DNA from: Methanobacteriota archaeon
GTDB taxonomy: Archaea > Thermoplasmatota > Thermoplasmata > RBG-16-68-12 > JAJISG01
Length of the DNA: 48,274 nt
Reading direction: 5' to 3'
Assembly: GCA_030594205.1 (NCBI GenBank)
Contig: JAUVFR010000009.1
Coordinates: 1-48,274, forward strand
Below the pieces are notes generated by a model. The model was not told the origin of the DNA, made no database searches, and was given only the letters and a program-made list of their open reading frames with translations. A program made the translations under genes and the position numbers. Within the stretch, counting starts at the first letter, position 1, and the number at the start of each line of letters is the position of its first letter. This document shows positions 15,101 to 42,606 of this stretch, piece by piece.

Positions 15101-16648
<1,548 letters not shown>

Positions 16649-19420
16649 CTAATCCTCCGCGTCGTCGCTGAGGGCGGCGGAGTCGTCCTCGAGTTCCACG
16701 ACCATGTCCTTCTCCTGGGCTCCGTAGCCAGCGACCGCATGTCCGGCCCCTTGGGCGCCGGAGAGGGCCTCGGGACCGAGAACTCCCGTCAGGATGTCGT
16801 CCAGGTCGACGGCCTCCCCGCCGATGCTCCGCATCGGATCGACCCCGTCCTCCCCGAACCGGAACTGGATGATCGTCTTTGCCGTGTTGCGGACCGTGCG
16901 GTCTTCCATCACCTTGAGGTCCTCCAAAACGTTGATCAGGCGGCGCTGCATGTACCCCGACCGGGATGTCCGGACGGCGGTGTCGACCAGTCCTTCCCGC
17001 CCACCCATGCTGTGGAAGAAGTACTCCGTAGGGTTCAGGCCGCTCTTGTAGGAGGAGCGGACAAAGCCCTTGGCCTCCGCGCCCAGGTCCTCCGGCTGGA
17101 AGTGGGGGAGGGTGCGTTTCCAGTAGCCCCGGGAGATCCGCTCCCCCCTAACGGCTTGTTGCCCGATGCTTCCCGCCATCTGGCTCAGGTTCAACATGGA
17201 GCCTCGGGCGCCGCTTCGCGCCATGATCACAGCACTGTTCTCCACTCCCAGGTGCCGGGAGGCGATCTCGCCCGCGTCGTCTCGGGACCGGCCGAGCTTC
17301 TTCATGGCCTCCACCTCCAAGGTCTCCTCCAACGAACGGCCAGGCATCTGCTCTAGTTCGCCCCCTTTGTAGGCCTCCACGAGACCGGCCACTTCCTCCA
17401 TGGCCCGCTCGAGGACCTCCGCAATCTCGTCCTTGGCCTCCTGAGGGATGTCCTCGTCGTCGATGCCCGTGGTGAAACCCCGAAGCATGATGGTCGCGAT
17501 GGCGAACCGGGTAGCGTCGTCGATGAATTGGCGGGCCCGCTCGGTTCCGTAGTCCCGGGCGATTCGATCGACGAGTTTTCCCTTGAAGGCGCCGATGGCG
17601 TTCTCGTCCATGACCCCTTCGCGAATCTTGCCCTTCTCGATCCGCACCACGGCATCCTCCTCGTCCCCTCGAGAGCCGATGGAAGCACGGAAGGTGACGG
17701 TAAGGTCCTCTGGGAGGATGGTACTGAAGAGGAGCTTCCCGCTCCAATACGATTGGCCGTCCGCCTTCATGTCCGGCTTGGGGAGGCCCGCGCGCCCGAC
17801 CATGGAGAGGAGGTAAGAGGTCTCGTCTCGCGTGAACCGGGCGTCCTTGTAGGTCATGAGGAAGGCGCCGGTGATATGGTCGTGGATGGCCCCGATCACC
17901 GGGCCTCCGAAGCGGGGCGACAGAATGTGCTCCTGGACCTTCATGAGGATCTTCGCTTCAGCCCGCGCCTCCTCGCTCTGGAGAACGTGGAGATTCATCT
18001 CGTCGCCGTCGAAGTCCGCGTTGTAGGGGGGACAGACGGCCAGGTTCAGGCGGAAGGTCTTTCCTGCCATGACCCGCACCTGGTGGGCCATGATGCTCAT
18101 CCGATGGAGGGATGGCTGCCGGTTGAAGAGGACGATGTCGCCGTCCACGAGCTGGCGTTCCACGACGTAGCCCAACTCGACGGCGTCGGCCACGGTCTCC
18201 GCGTTCTTGTCGGTGACCCGAATCCGACGCCCGTCGGGACGGATGATGTAGTTGACGCCGGGGATGTACTCCCCATTTTCGCCTGTAGGTTTGGGACCCC
18301 GAATCACCCACTCCTTCACGATCTCCTGGTTGTACGCCTGGACGTGGACGGGGACGGTGAGTTCCCGGGCGGCCTGGTAGGGAATCCCCACCTCGTTGAT
18401 GCTGATAAGGGGGTCGGGGGAGATGACGGTGCGGGCGGAGAAGTTCACGCGTTTCCCGCTCAGGTTGGAACGGAATCGTCCCTCCTTCCCCTTTAGGCGC
18501 TGCACGAGGGTCTTGAGGGGACGCCCGGATCGATGTCGGGCAGGAGGAATCCCGCTGGTCTGGTTATCGTAGTAGGTGGTGACGTGGTACTGGAGCAGCT
18601 CCCAGAGGTCTTCCACGATGAGCTGCGGGGCGCCCGCATCCCGGTTCTCACGCAGACGCTGGTTGATCCGCAGGACGTCCACCAGTTTGTGAGTCAGGTC
18701 GTCCTCCGACCGGTCCCCGGACTCAAGCGTGATGGAGGGCCGCACGGTCACGGGAGGGACCGAGAGGACCGTCAGGATCATCCACTCCGGACGGGCGACA
18801 TCGGGGTTGATCCCCAAGGGTCGGAGATCCTCATCGGGCATTCGTTCCAGCCGCTCGCGCACCTCCTTCGGTGTCAGCTTGTGGCCGTCCTCTCGGAAGG
18901 TCGTGGGCTTGTCCAGCGTGATCTTCATCTGGTCCGCCTTGCAGTGGGGGCAGACCTGGCGCTTCATCGCGTCTCGCGCCGCCTGTTTCGTGATTTCCAT
19001 CGTCCGCGGGGACTCGCCGCCGGCCGCGAGGGCGTCACTCTTCCGCATCTCGTCCAGGTACTCCTGCTTCTCCTCCCGGCTGAGCAAGAGCCGGCCGCAG
19101 GCACGGCACGTGGACTGCAGGAGTGTCTTGATCTCCTTGATGTAACCCACGTGGATGACGGGCATGGCAAGGTCGATGTGGCCGAAGTGACCCGGGCAGT
19201 CGTCTACGCGTCCGCCGCACGTCTTGCACCGCAATCCCGGCTCGATGACGCCCATATGGAGGTCCATGAGACCCATGTCGATGGGGAACCCGTCGTCATC
19301 GTAGGTGTCGGCCGTGATGATCTTGGTGGCGCTCATCCGACGTATCTCGTCCGGACTCAGGAGCCCGAACCGTAGGGCTTGGATCCGTTTCGAGACCCCG
19401 TGGAGAGGTGTGGGCATCAT
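16649..19420 (-). CDS. rpoA1: RNA polymerase subunit A'
   Basis: Largest-subunit N-terminal portion, 923 aa, holding the clamp, active site and bridge-helix region. Zinc ligands occur in [17 protein letters not shown] near residue 65, with a second set at CRACGR and CPHCKAD. The catalytic magnesium site is [10 protein letters not shown] near residue 473. The rudder/lid segment [20 protein letters not shown] is intact and no intein is present. The C-terminus is acidic ([13 protein letters not shown]). The ATG overlaps the rpoB stop by four bases (ATGA), so the two are coupled. Confidence 0.97.
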
Positions 19421-22400
19421 CGAAGGTCCTCCAATTGGAGACGCATGGCCACCCCGAGAGAGAGCAGTTCATCCACGAGGAGCTTGAAGGCGTAGGAGGT
19501 CTGGACGGGGTAGATGTTGGAGTTGTTGCCGCAGACGGTGCAGCGAAGGTTTCCTTTCCGATCTTTGATGGCGAAGTGGCCGCACTCGGGGTTCCCGCAT
19601 ACGTACAGGAGGATGCCGTCCGACTCGTCCAAGAGGCGGTCCTTGATCACCATGGCCGCTCCGTGGCCGATGAGGCAGTCCCGTTCCATCTCGCCGAAGC
19701 GGAGGCCGCCTTGCCGTGATCGTCCCTCGGTGGGCTGGCGGGTGAGGATCTGCACGGGTCCTCGACTCCGTACGTGGAGCTTCCCAGAGACCATGTGGTG
19801 GAGTTTCTGGTAGTAGATGGCCCCAACGAAAATCTCCGCGGGAATCATTTGGCCGGTCTTGCCGTCGATGAGGACCTCTTTTCCGTTGCTCTTGAACCCG
19901 TTCTTCACGAGGGCCTCTCGCAACGCGTCCTCCGTCTCCCCGCTGAAAGGCGTGCCGTCTACCGAGCGTCCCTCGGCGGAGCCGACCTTGCCCCCGATCA
20001 TCTCCAGGACGTGGGCCACAGTCATCCTCGAGGGGATGGCAGGGGGATTGATCACGAGGTCCGGAACGATGCCTTGCTCCGTGAAGGGCAGGTCCTCTTG
20101 GGCGGCGAGGAGACCGACCACGCCCTTCTGGCCATGGCGAGAGGCAAATTTGTCCCCCAGCTCGGGGATACGAAGGTCACGGATTTTCACCTTGGCCAGC
20201 TTGCTTCCGTTCTCGGATTCCGTGAGCATGACGCTGTCGACCCACCCCATCTCGCCGTGGCGCACCGTGATGCTGGTCTCGCGCCGCTTCTGTGGTGTTA
20301 GAAAGTCCGTCTCCTCCTCCAGGAACCGGGGCGGAGAAGTCTTTCCGATGAGAACGTCGCCCCCTCCCACCCCCACCTCGGGGCTGATGAGGCCGTCCTC
20401 GGGGGTCAGGCTGGCGTAGGCCAGGTCGGCGCGGGCACCGCGGACGTCGGGGCTCGGGGTCTCGAAATGGTCCTCCTGGCCGCCGGGGTAACGGCGTTCC
20501 TCGGCCTTGTAGGTCCGCATGAAGCTGGAGCGTCCGAGGCCGCGCTCCACGGAGGCCTTGTTGAGAACCACCGCGTCCTCCATGTTCCACCCGTGGTAGG
20601 ACATGACCGCGACGATGTAGTTCTGGCCTGCGGGACGGCGGTTGAAGTTGAGGAATTGCATGGCTTCGGTCTGGACCAGCGGCGCCTGCGGGTAGTGGAG
20701 GAGGTGGCTACGGGTATCGGGCCGAATGCGGTAGTTGGATGCCGCGAGGCCTAGGGACTGCTTGATCATGCCGGCCCCCATCGTGACGCGGGGCGAGGAA
20801 TTGTGTTCCGCGTACGGGACGAGGCCCGCACTGACCCCAAGGATGACCAGGGGGTCAATTTCCATGTGCGTGTGCTCCTTCGTAAGAAGGCTCTCCCCCT
20901 CCAGGGTGGACTGGCAGAAGTGACACTGGAGCTCCACGCGCCCCGCCTCGCTGCCGGGGTTGACCCAGTCTACGTCGCCACGCGAGAGGGCGTGGCCGCA
21001 ATGCGGGCAATCGGGTGGCACGCCGTATCCGTAGAGGGCGATGAAGGCATCCTCCTCTTCCTCGGCGTCGATCCACTCCACGATTCCGTTGTCGATCATG
21101 TCGGCCCACCGGAGCTTCCCGATACGGAGGTCTTCCAGGTCCTTCTGCGTGAGGACCGGAATCCCCTCTCGGAGCACAATCAGCGGTCGTCGCATCCGGC
21201 CCTGGTCGCAGTTGATGATGATCTCGTTCATCGACCGGTCGAACCGGATGTTGACTTCGTGGCTTAGGAGTCCGGAGCGCCGTCGACCCCGAATCTCCTC
21301 GACGAGGGTCTCGGGTTCTTCGTGGAGGCCCACGAGGTCTCCGTTGACGTACACACGAATGAGCTGGGTCTGCTGCCCAGCCACACGACGGGTCCCCAGG
21401 TCGGCCAGGAGGAGCTTGACGGTGTCCTCATCGAACCCTTCGGAGACGTCGATGACGAGGGCGGCGTTCTTGACCAGTCCACAATTCTGCCCTTCCGGTG
21501 TCTCGTTGGGACAGAGGCGGCCCCACTGGGTGGGGTGGAGGTCCCGGGCCTCGAAGTGAGGCTGGCTCCGCGTCAAGGGGGAGGTCACCCGCCGCAGGTG
21601 GCTCATGGCACTCATGTGCGACGTCCGGTCGAGGAGTTGAGATACCCCCGCCCGGCCGCCCACCCAGTTCCCCGTGGACAGCGCGTGCAGCAGGCGTTGG
21701 GACAGGAGGTCGGGCCGGATCGCAGCCGAAATCTTCAGTCCCTTCCCGCGGGCGTAGGCGCGCTCCAGCTGGTACTTCAGGTCCTTGATAAGGTTCGCGA
21801 AGGCCACGCGGAAGAGGTCTTCCATCAGGTCCCCCGCCAGCTTCAGGCGCTTGTTGGCATAGTGGTCCTTGTCGTCCGCGCGACGAAGGTCCAAGGAGAG
21901 CTCGAGGATCGTCCGCGCGATTCGGCCCAGGAAGAGGCCCTTCTTGATCCGGGCCTCCTTCGTGTCGCCCAAGTGAGGAAGGAGGGAACGGTCCAGGATG
22001 GAGTCCACCTTGCGGATCCGGTACTCCTTGGCCTGGCCCGTGGCGAACTTCTTCTCTAGGTAGAGGAGCGCGTCCTCCTGGCTGAAGATCCCCGCGGGTG
22101 GGTAGAGCTTCTTGTTCTGGATCTCCTCTAGGTTCGCGTAGACGATAAGGCGCATCTGGGGGGTCGAGACAATGGCGTTGAAGATGTCCTCGTCCTTGTC
22201 CATTCCTAGGGCCTTGAGGAGGATGACGAGGGGGATTTGGCCGGAGGCCGTGGGGACGGTGACCATGAGGATGCTGTCCTTCTTCTTCTCCACCAAGGTA
22301 AGAGCCCGGTACCCTTCCCGCTGGGAGAAAACCTTGGCCACCTCCATACGGCGGCCGTACCGCTCGTTGAATTCGACGAGGACGCGATTGGGAGCCAAGT

Positions 22401-23010
22401 CCTCCAGGGAGATGAGCACCCGTTCTGTGCCGCTGATGATGAAGTAGCCACCGGGGTCATAGGGATCCTCACGGTTTTCCACGAGCTTCCGGTGATATTC
22501 CTCGTCGAGGAGGTCGTACCCGTCCTCCAGGTTCTCTCGATAGAGGCGGCACTTCCTCGTCTTGACCATGATCGGGAGGTTGCCGATGAAGACCCGAGCA
22601 GGCTCCCGCTCGATGCCGTCCTCGACGATGGTGAAGTCCAGGTAGAGCGGTGCTAGGTAAGTCAGACCTCGGAGGCGGGACTCCATGGGGGTGAGAGGGT
22701 GCGAAGCGCCGTTGGCCTCCTTGACTTCGGGCAGCTTCACGTGGATGGTGGGCTTCGCATCGGGCGGGATCCTTCCGTTCTCCTCGTTCCGACGGCCAAA
22801 ACGAATCTCGACCTTTCTACCCTCAGTTCGGTCCTCGTCGAGCTTAATGATGCCCCGCCGGTCATCGTCCACCATGGCCCGAAGGCTGTCCACAATGCCT
22901 TGCATCCGGCTGTTCGGATTGTCATCGGACGCCAGGAAATCGTTGAAGCTGGCGATGTGGTGGTTGACGATGCTCCGTTCCCGAAAGAAGGCGTGTACAA
23001 GCTCCCGCAT
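19417..23010 (-). CDS. rpoB: RNA polymerase subunit B (unsplit)
   Basis: Second-largest subunit, 1197 aa, as one polypeptide rather than B' and B''. Landmarks are [44 protein letters not shown]-like [15 protein letters not shown], the hybrid-binding [13 protein letters not shown], and the C-terminal zinc site CGNPECGHF...CTVCG. An additional four-Cys segment (CPHCGH...CHFCQ, about residues 666-697) is inserted between [14 protein letters not shown] and [16 protein letters not shown], where most homologues have a short loop. It begins two bases after rpoH. Confidence 0.97.
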
Positions 23011-23012
23011 GC

Positions 23013-23267
23013 TTATCTCTCCACGACGACCCGGTAGGCCACGAACACCCCGGCCGTGGCGCTCAGGCGAACGACCTTGATGACCCGCCCTTCGGCGATG
23101 GGCTCGCCCACCACCTCCTCGAGGAAACGGATGGCGGGGTCCCCGCTTTTGATCTTCGGGAGCTGTTCCCGGCCCACGCGCAGCTCGGCCAGGACGCCAT
23201 CAGCTTCCTTCTCGGAAAGCAGGTGGTGCTCGGGGACCATGTCGTGTTCCATCACATTGAACGCCAT
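23013..23267 (-). CDS. rpoH: RNA polymerase subunit H (Rpb5 C-terminal homologue)
   Basis: 84-aa assembly subunit of archaeal RNA polymerase. Typical segments are [20 protein letters not shown], then [13 protein letters not shown] and a basic C-terminal strand ending VAYRVVVER. The ATG at 23267 follows a full AGGAGG seven bases upstream, which decides the start over the longer frame reaching 23357. It opens the protein-coding part of the array; the tRNA-Lys gene ends 30 bp upstream on the same strand. Confidence 0.95.
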
Positions 23268-23296: not shown

Positions 23297-23469
23297 CGGG
23301 CCCGCGGGGACTTTCGCTGCGCCTCCCGAAGGGACGCAATTTCGAACCCCGGACCATCTGGTTTCAGCGCAATCGCTCCCAGGAATCGTTCCTAGAGCAT
23401 TGCCTAAAAGCCAGACGCTCTTTCTAGGGACCAGCCTCCGGCCGTCCAACCTAGCTGAGCTACGGGCCC
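23297..23469 (-). tRNA. tRNA-Lys(UUU) interrupted by three introns
   Basis: Acceptor GGGCCCG (23469-23463) pairs perfectly with CGGGCCC (23304-23298); the discriminator is G and no CCA is encoded. Exons are 23469-23449, 23421-23405, 23362-23341 and 23310-23297, giving a 74-nt tRNA with D-loop AGCTAGGTA, anticodon loop CTTTTAA and T-loop TTCGAAT. Intron 1 (27 nt, D-loop) forms a BHB: CTAG/CTAG centre, bulges GTT and AAA, inner GGAC/GTCC. Intron 3 (30 nt, T-loop) forms a BHB: TTCG/CGAA centre, bulges AAA and AGT, inner TTGCG/CGCAG. Intron 2 (42 nt, after base 37) has an internal stem GCAAT/ATTGC but a relaxed junction, so its ends may shift by one base. A TATA-like CAATTTAC lies ~23 bp upstream. 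Splicing would need the archaeal BHB endonuclease. Confidence 0.9.
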
Positions 23470-23641: not shown

Positions 23642-23661
23642 GCCTTGGGCCTGAATGAACC

Positions 23662-23835
23662 GTGCTGGCCTGGATCGAGACCAAATGTACGACGTGCGGT
23701 CGTCCCTTGACGGAACAGGGATCCGTCATCTTCCGGTGTCCACGGTGCGGAGATACCACCATCGGCCGGTGCGTGCGTTGCCGGGATCAGAGCGTGCCTT
23801 ACGCCTGCAAGAAGTGCGACTTTCACGGGCCCTAG
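23662..23835 (+). CDS. Small zinc-ribbon protein (translation-associated, HVO_2753-like)
   Basis: 57-aa protein made almost entirely of two zinc ribbons with four CxxC pairs: CTTCG, CPRCG, CVRC and CKKC, ending YACKKCDFHGP. This pattern is the conserved archaeal small zinc-finger family often encoded next to aEF-1beta and thought to bind RNA. The GTG start at 23662 puts the first ribbon in frame behind a TATA-like box. The aEF-1beta gene follows eight bases later. Assignment rests on pattern and neighbourhood. Confidence 0.85.
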   Translation: MLAWIETKCTTCGRPLTEQGSVIFRCPRCGDTTIGRCVRCRDQSVPYACKKCDFHGP

Positions 23836-23843
23836 GTGATCGT

Positions 23844-24104
23844 ATGGGCCGGGTCGTGGTCACCTTCCGGGTCATGCCGATGGGTCCGGACGTCGAAATG
23901 CCCCCAATACGGGAAGCCCTGCACGAATCCTTCGCGGGGGACCTACGGGACCTCGTCGAGAAGCCGGTGGCCTTCGGCCTCGTGGGCCTGGAAGCCATCG
24001 TCCTCCTGGACGACGCGGAGGGGCGCCTGGAGGGCGCGGAGGAGATGATTCGCGGGTTGGAGGGTGTCGGGAGCGTGGAGACCCTCTCTGTCGACCTGAT
24101 TTGA
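23844..24104 (+). CDS. Translation elongation factor aEF-1beta
   Basis: 86-aa guanine nucleotide exchange factor that recharges aEF-1alpha with GTP. Matches to the family are the start MGRVVVTFRVMPMGPDVEMP, the central KPVAFGLVGLEAIVLLDD, and the C-terminal GLEGVGSVETLSVDLI. The last segment resembles the conserved GVxSVEVxxVxLI ending. The length is typical of the archaeal single-domain form. It is translated with the upstream zinc-ribbon gene. Confidence 0.92.
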   Translation: MGRVVVTFRVMPMGPDVEMPPIREALHESFAGDLRDLVEKPVAFGLVGLEAIVLLDDAEGRLEGAEEMIRGLEGVGSVETLSVDLI

Positions 24105-32874: not shown

Positions 32875-33006
32875 GGGTGTGACGGCCATAGCGGCGGGGA
32901 TACACCCGGTCCCATCCCGAACCCGGAAGTTAAGCCCGCCTGCGTTTCCTCTGGTACTGCGGTGCGCGAGCCCGTGGGAAGGTTGGCCCGCAAGGGTCGT
33001 GGACCC
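32875..33006 (+). rRNA. rrf: 5S ribosomal RNA
   Basis: Contains the conserved archaeal 5S core: GGCCATAGCGGCGGGGA, then CCCATCCCGAACCCGGAAGT and TAAGCCCGCCTGCGTT, then GGTGCGCGAGCCCGTGGGAA. The terminal helix pairs around GGGTGTGAC with GTCGTGGACCC. The ends are estimated to within a few bases. No 16S or 23S gene is adjacent, so 5S is a separate transcription unit. A TATA-like GCTTAAG at ~32841 lies ~30 bp upstream. Confidence 0.93.
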
Positions 33007-42520: not shown

Positions 42521-42606
42521 GCCGCCGTAGCTCAGCTGGCGAGAGCGACGGTCTTGTAACCCCGCAAGAAAACCGTAGGTCAAGGGTTCGAATCCCTTCG
42601 GCGGCT
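42521..42606 (+). tRNA. tRNA-Thr(UGU) with a 12-nt intron
   Basis: Acceptor GCCGCCG pairs with CGGCGGC; the T-stem is AAGGG/CCCTT around TTCGAAT and the anticodon stem ACGGT/ACCGT. The discriminator is T and no CCA is encoded. A 12-base insert (42559-42570) follows base 37. CTTG in the exon pairs with CAAG in the intron to form the central BHB helix, with bulges TAA and AAA and a five-base loop closing the intron. Splicing gives the loop CTTGTAA and a 74-nt tRNA. An A/T-rich box at ~42483-42495 is ~30 bp upstream. Confidence 0.93.

Follow-up and report, generated by a model that had tools for sequence, protein, structure and literature searches.

A tRNA-Lys(UUU) gene in four exons

The stretch of DNA analysed here (48,274 nt, referred to below as the window) belongs to a Thermoplasmatota MAG of 1.54 Mb, which is distributed over 69 contigs and rated 94% complete. 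Its minus strand carries a tRNA-Lys(UUU) gene with three introns ahead of rpoH and rpoB (Table 1). In reading order, the gene consists of GGGCCCGTAGCTCAGCTAGGT, a 27-nt intron, AGAGCGTCTGGCTTTTA, a 42-nt intron, ACCAGATGGTCCGGGGTTCGAA, a 30-nt intron and TCCCCGCGGGCCCG. The exons (21+17+22+14 nt) add up to 74 nt, and the introns are located, in standard numbering, at 20/21 (D-loop), 37/38 and 59/60 (T-loop). Once they are removed, all stems are perfect (acceptor 7/7, D 4/4, anticodon 5/5, T 5/5), and the exons form a complete cloverleaf in which the conserved residues U8, A14, G18G19, U33 and TTCGAAT are present. The initial annotation had proposed this 173-nt gene, with the segments 23448-23422, 23404-23363 and 23340-23311 taken out; the coordinates are exact and leave a perfect 74-nt tRNA. 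The gene was reported neither by ARAGORN nor by Rfam RF00005.

Table 1. Features of the tRNA-Lys(UUU) locus and its downstream neighbours
Feature	Position	Strand	Remarks
tRNA-Lys(UUU) gene, three introns	23297..23469	-	173 nt, predicted mature tRNA 74 nt; sequence, genome scan, 65 other syntenic orthologues
Exon 1, GGGCCCGTAGCTCAGCTAGGT	23449..23469	-	tRNA positions 1-20
D-loop intron, 27 nt, 20/21	23422..23448	-	bulge GU|U, central helix CUAG/CUAG, inner helix GGAC/GUCC
Exon 2, AGAGCGTCTGGCTTTTA	23405..23421	-	tRNA positions 21-37; anticodon UUU at 23408-23406
Canonical-position intron, 42 nt, 37/38	23363..23404	-	central helix 2 of 4 pairs
Exon 3, ACCAGATGGTCCGGGGTTCGAA	23341..23362	-	tRNA positions 38-59
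T-loop intron, 30 nt, 59/60	23311..23340	-	strict hBHBh': T-stem outer helix, bulge AA|A, central UUCG/CGAA, bulge AG|U
Exon 4, TCCCCGCGGGCCCG	23297..23310	-	tRNA positions 60-73
rpoH (Rpb5 C-terminal domain)	23013..23267	-	start codon 29 nt past tRNA; AGGAGG at 23280-23275; conserved downstream neighbour
rpoB, unsplit, 1197 aa	19417..23010	-	anchor for collecting orthologous loci

After the tRNA and rpoH, the unsplit rpoB is followed by rpoA1 and rpoA2, the three genes spanning 15101-23010 on the minus strand. The divergent neighbour (23655-24104, plus strand) encodes an EF-1 guanine-nucleotide-exchange domain (archaeal EF-1 beta). A 5S rRNA gene lies at 32878-32993 on the plus strand, and neither 16S nor 23S rRNA was reported within the 48-kb window.

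Copy number and other interrupted tRNA genes of the host

We scanned the whole host genome with an intron-aware procedure of our own, which permitted introns at 20/21, 37/38 and 59/60. The scan found 38 tRNA genes in the 1.54 Mb and independently recovered tRNA-Lys(UUU) with its three introns, as had been suggested for such a search; it is the only three-intron tRNA of the scan. Fifteen random genomes of equal size and trinucleotide composition gave no three-intron match with perfect stems and two imperfect ones, which rules out a chance parse. A second, intact tRNA-Lys(UUU) gene, with the present copy degenerating in relatives, had been named as the finding that would speak against the gene. 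No second gene was found in the 94%-complete genome, the missing part of which could still hold one, and in relatives the gene is not degraded.

Introns were found in at least 20 of the 38 scanned tRNA genes. The other tRNA-Lys (CUU) carries two of them, 15 nt at 37/38 and 22 nt at 59/60. Introns at 59/60 are present in seven genes (Met-CAU, Ser-CGA, His-GUG, Ser-UGA, Leu-UAA, Lys-CUU and Lys-UUU), such that the BHB found at this position of tRNA-Lys(UUU) also occurs in six other tRNA genes of the same genome. Two further genes were noted in passing. A tRNA-Thr(UGU) at 42521-42606 (plus strand) has a 12-nt intron at 37/38 and is called tRNA-??? by ARAGORN without intron mode. A tRNA-Trp(CCA) (L176, G000 C29 near 94830-94873) has a 94-nt intron at 37/38; in other archaea, introns of this length class carry a box C/D guide RNA.

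Conservation of the locus in Thermoplasmatota

With rpoB as an anchor, 80 Thermoplasmatota loci were collected from GTDB genomes, and tRNA-Lys(UUU) could be parsed in 66 loci (window included), in the same place and orientation upstream of rpoH-rpoB. All three introns are present in 12 of these loci, one or two in 38 and none in 16. Denoting the introns at 20/21, 37/38 and 59/60 as D, A and T, the patterns are D+A+T (12), D+T (25), D+A (4), D (4), T (5) and none (16), or, per site, D in 45, A in 16 and T in 42 loci; four loci with visible D-loop insertions on which the parser failed (L042, L043, L048, L057) were left unassigned in these counts. One further parse, of A and T introns in L081, was rejected as spurious: its T-loop, GTCCGAAT, fails the TTC filter, and the gene looks intronless. 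Dozens of Thermoplasmatota loci preserve the order tRNA-Lys(UUU)-rpoH-rpoB, whether or not the tRNA gene is interrupted. The cultured relative Methanomassiliicoccus is of the D+T type.

The mature 74-mer is near-constant across the loci, and the introns diverge in sequence as well as in length (D 24-147, A 20-67, T 19-66 nt). In the nearest relative (L003, 86% rpoB identity) they measure 27, 43 and 29 nt. Orthologues with the same insertion points come from many independent assemblies, including the single-contig chromosomes CP070767, CP070732 and CP070748. The intronless tRNA-Lys(UUU) genes belong to Thermoplasmatales and Aciduliprofundum/DHVE2. When 194 genomes sampled across the phylum were searched with a covariance model built on the T-loop intron, 42 gave matches, which fall into several families both within the class and beyond it; this count is a lower bound, because the filters were strict. 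In the 398 kb scanned of the complete L007 chromosome, no further T- or D-loop introns were found.

Structure at the splice sites

Splice sites were assigned by placing each cut between bases two and three of a 3-nt bulge. The T-loop intron conforms to the strict motif. Every T-loop intron in the set is flanked by the 5-bp T-stem and a central helix of the UUCR/YGRA type, with 4/4 pairs in 41 of 42, and the lowest-energy fold of the window's T-arm is a strict BHB. In the alignment of 27 T-loop introns, 96% of the cells are paired as compared to 78% in shuffles, and the covariation score (0.529 vs 0.167 in shuffles, 0/500) is lost on sliding the partners. An inner helix of at least 4 bp is formed in 19 of 42 loci, as compared to 2.8 when intron halves are swapped.

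For the D-loop intron, the 3' site lies in a 2x3 internal loop (A14-G15 opposite AAA), which makes it a bulge-helix-loop (BHL). The relatives agree with this: their D-loop introns always have the 5' bulge, and on the outer side they invariably show a 2x3 internal loop. The two-bulge motif that the initial annotation assigned to both introns hence holds for the T-loop (hBHBh'), whereas in the D-loop a clean 3-nt bulge is confined to the 5' side. The central helix has 4/4 pairs in 41 of 45 loci and is maintained by compensatory exon-intron pairs (CUAG/CUAG, CCAG/CUGG, GCAG/CUGC, AUAG/CUAU, GUCG/CGAU). Paired cells make up 97.9% of the alignment vs 83% in shuffles, the covariation score is 0.434 vs 0.151 (0/500), and an inner helix of at least 4 bp is found in 35 of 45 loci as compared to 11.5 with intron halves swapped between species. 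The junctions of both non-canonical introns thus show a BHB or a relaxed version of it, strict hBHBh' in the T-loop and BHL in the D-loop, with covariation in both.

It could be argued that the gene is a decaying pseudogene or an assembly artefact, the insertions being lesions in a dispensable copy, given that standard tRNA finders miss it and that its host is a MAG in 69 contigs. However, no other tRNA-Lys(UUU) was found, the exons are perfect and the helices covary, and divergent introns share their insertion points over many independent assemblies, single-contig chromosomes among them. We regard pseudogene and assembly error alike as ruled out by the absence of another gene and by this conservation, the probability that we would still assign to them being close to nil.

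With respect to the 37/38 intron, the central helix has 4/4 pairs in 12 of the 16 carrier loci (e.g., CUUU/AAAG) and 2/4 in the window and L003; an inner helix of at least 4 bp is present in 12 of 16, vs 2.5 with intron halves swapped. Unlike in most relatives, UUUUAG pairs with CUGAAA in the lowest-energy fold of this intron in the window and its sister L003, which covers the anticodon. This fold buries the 37/38 splice sites in a near-continuous helix that lies about 6 kcal/mol below the fold with both bulges open, and the corresponding gap in several relatives is 4.5-5.8 kcal/mol. A regulatory role is conceivable for the introns, especially the one at 37/38, in that slow or conditional splicing may couple lysine decoding to rpo expression. 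The pairing of the anticodon with the intron in the window gene would fit this, as would the conserved adjacency to rpoH-rpoB, with a gap of 29 nt in the window. Several lineages, however, keep the synteny without any of the introns, and we consider such a role unlikely.

The splicing machinery

The genome contains one EndA gene. Its product of approximately 350 aa has PF02778 and PF01974 each twice in one ORF, and the active-site Tyr, His and Lys are found in the second repeat, with Tyr and His absent from the first. A single gene with two fused repeats and the triad in the second only identifies the enzyme as alpha'2-type, which supplies the EndA typing that had been called for. AlphaFold predicts the fold at a mean pLDDT of 90, and Foldseek puts the model next to 5X89, the fused EndA of M. 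kandleri (TM 0.79), and 2GJW, the alpha'2 dimer of Archaeoglobus. The protein thereby resembles the known alpha'2 enzymes (Archaeoglobus 2GJW, Thermoplasma 2OHC, Haloferax, Ferroplasma) and fused 5X89, which likewise are encoded by one gene and have a structural first and a catalytic second repeat. The RtcB ligase gene is also present once.

At the site of Aeropyrum's 10-residue specificity loop, neither the EndA of the window genome nor those of the aligned intron-bearing relatives have an insertion compared with Archaeoglobus (ARMAN-2 stood outside this residue-by-residue alignment). The sequence hence lacks the hallmark of broad-specificity EndAs ((alpha-beta)2 with CSL, epsilon2 with ASL), a loop insertion that bears a conserved Lys close to the active site. 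The relaxed splicing endonuclease that the initial annotation expected is therefore not indicated: the enzyme is alpha'2-type without the crenarchaeal loop, and the motif at the T-loop intron is a canonical one. As a rule, relaxed introns are associated with loop-bearing EndAs of the (alpha-beta)2 or epsilon2 type, which is why a loop-less EndA is notable here.

EndA was detected in 28 genomes. Where tRNA-Lys has introns, the protein shows two recognisable catalytic domains; where it has none, EndA is compact, about 290-320 aa, and a single domain can be recognised (G028 has a longer ORF, its start being undefined). The EndA of the host, at 350 aa, has full N-terminal domains in both repeats, whereas that of intronless Thermoplasmatales measures about 290 aa. 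This relation between EndA size and introns is a correlation and not independent evidence, because it rests on one phylogenetic split. An example of the full-length two-repeat form is found at L002 (G000 C64:232681-233682), the compact form being that of Thermoplasmatales and Aciduliprofundum. In most intron-bearing lineages, the (Y/F)G motif in the second repeat is immediately followed by a conserved Lys or Arg.

Age of the introns

On an rpoB tree of 78 rows, rooted at its midpoint, the state of the D-loop intron requires 2 changes. The counts for A and T are 4 and 6, each of them at most one too high because of the spurious L081 parse. All intron patterns together require 21 changes, as compared to 47.8 in shuffles. 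Intron presence is strongly clustered on the tree and covers most of the sampled non-Thermoplasmatales lineages. Since the insertion sites are shared by dozens of related species ahead of the same RNA-polymerase genes, they are old features. The midpoint rooting is compatible with ancestral presence and later loss as well as with a single early gain; it is not compatible with a recent gain.

A recent intron gain had been put forward for this gene, and in a fuller version a newly relaxed endonuclease would have admitted the D- and T-loop introns. The idea has a precedent in Thermoproteales, the group best known for multi-intron tRNAs, in which gain was recent (PMC8450103, PMC4090602). It is contradicted by the D-loop intron, which is present in 45 of 66 loci and changes only twice on the tree, and by the clustering of all patterns (21 vs 47.8 changes), and a newly relaxed enzyme sits poorly with an EndA that has no specificity loop. 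We thus judge a recent gain to be very unlikely.

Discussion

The tRNA-Lys(UUU) gene described here is, with high probability, a functional, essential single-copy gene whose pre-tRNA is cut six times by EndA and joined by RtcB, and whose introns were inherited from early on. Gene structure, conservation and covariation are directly observed, as is a single gene each for EndA and RtcB; the splicing of the introns, including the exact junctions, is deduced from them. The pre-tRNA would probably be made together with rpoH-rpoB. The single homodimeric alpha'2-type EndA would then cut it six times, at the 20/21 BHL, at the intron in the anticodon loop (37/38) and at the 59/60 BHB, the exact sites and the order of cutting being presumptive, and the four exons would be ligated by RtcB. 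The introns appear to have been passed on from early in the intron-bearing Thermoplasmatota, with sequence and length drifting within the limits set by the splice-site helices.

Three-intron tRNAs, positions 20/21 and 59/60, and BHB/BHL junctions have already been described (PMC4090602, PMC8450103, PMC6379350), and both positions are among the published non-canonical sites (PMC4090602). As in Thermoproteales, where for instance tRNA-Pro(UGG) of Pyrobaculum islandicum has introns at 25/26, 37/38 and 56/57, up to three introns occupy canonical and non-canonical positions with BHB or relaxed BHB junctions (PMC4090602). However, Thermoproteales have an (alpha-beta)2 EndA with the crenarchaea-specific loop, as opposed to the loop-less alpha'2-type, and their introns were gained recently, by transposition, whereas those described here are old and syntenic. 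Euryarchaeota with alpha4 or alpha2 endonucleases have been characterized as having few tRNA introns, one per gene and at the canonical site (PMC4090602). That such genes are known mainly from Thermoproteales, as the initial annotation had it, is correct insofar as they are best known there, but multiple introns also occur outside, including in two euryarchaea, Methanopyrus kandleri and Methanothermobacter thermautotrophicus, which like our host are Euryarchaeota-side and have more than one intron per tRNA (PMC4033280). These are two isolated genera in a list from which Thermoplasmatota are absent, whereas the sites reported here are common to a set of lineages. Compared with other archaea that have introns at 20/21 or 59/60, both are combined with 37/38 in one tRNA-Lys(UUU), conserved beside rpoH-rpoB. 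We did not find this combination or the synteny described, though an earlier description (Kaneta 2018, GtRNAdb) is possible, and the literature that we searched yielded nothing on the occurrence, age or synteny of tRNA introns in Thermoplasmata or Methanomassiliicoccales.

Whether a loop-less alpha'2 enzyme cuts a BHL in the D-loop is disputed, the literature being divided. On the one hand, homodimeric EndAs are reported to accept bulge-helix-loop motifs (PMC8707768), and the Archaeoglobus EndA is reported to cut a BHL at 37/38 in a full-length pre-tRNA (PMC6379350). On the other hand, alpha'2 is called narrow in reviews and the Haloferax enzyme is described as strict (PMC6379350, PMC7714728), while alpha2 is said to be limited to the canonical BHB (PMC4033280). 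We tentatively propose, at somewhat less than even chances, that relaxed non-canonical introns have been processed by a full-length alpha'2 EndA without the loop in most Thermoplasmatota lineages, from their common ancestor onwards, and that the loss of introns in Thermoplasmatales and Aciduliprofundum was accompanied by shrinkage of EndA. If this is true, the accepted rule by which such introns co-evolve with loop-bearing (alpha-beta)2 or epsilon2 EndAs would not be a general one.

The initial annotation was thus right about the structure and, judging from a host that is a Thermoplasmatota and a gene that looks functional, about a three-intron tRNA-Lys(UUU) in a Euryarchaeota-side genome; its reading of a recent gain was wrong, and the sequence of the enzyme lends no support to the relaxed endonuclease that it implied. 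The multi-intron tRNA gene is real; genes of its kind are known, and this clade, absent from the reviews that we consulted, is one in which none was expected. One Thermoplasmatota genome with introns in at least 20 of 38 tRNA genes contrasts with the reviews' picture of Euryarchaeota having few. The syntenic series of genes with three, two, one or no introns, in genomes with a full-length or a compact EndA, constitutes a natural comparison that would let intron age, intron loss and endonuclease specificity be tested. For the cell, the introns would have to be cut out in order to make the essential tRNA-Lys(UUU), and for the annotator, essential tRNAs in Thermoplasmatota can escape standard tRNA annotation.
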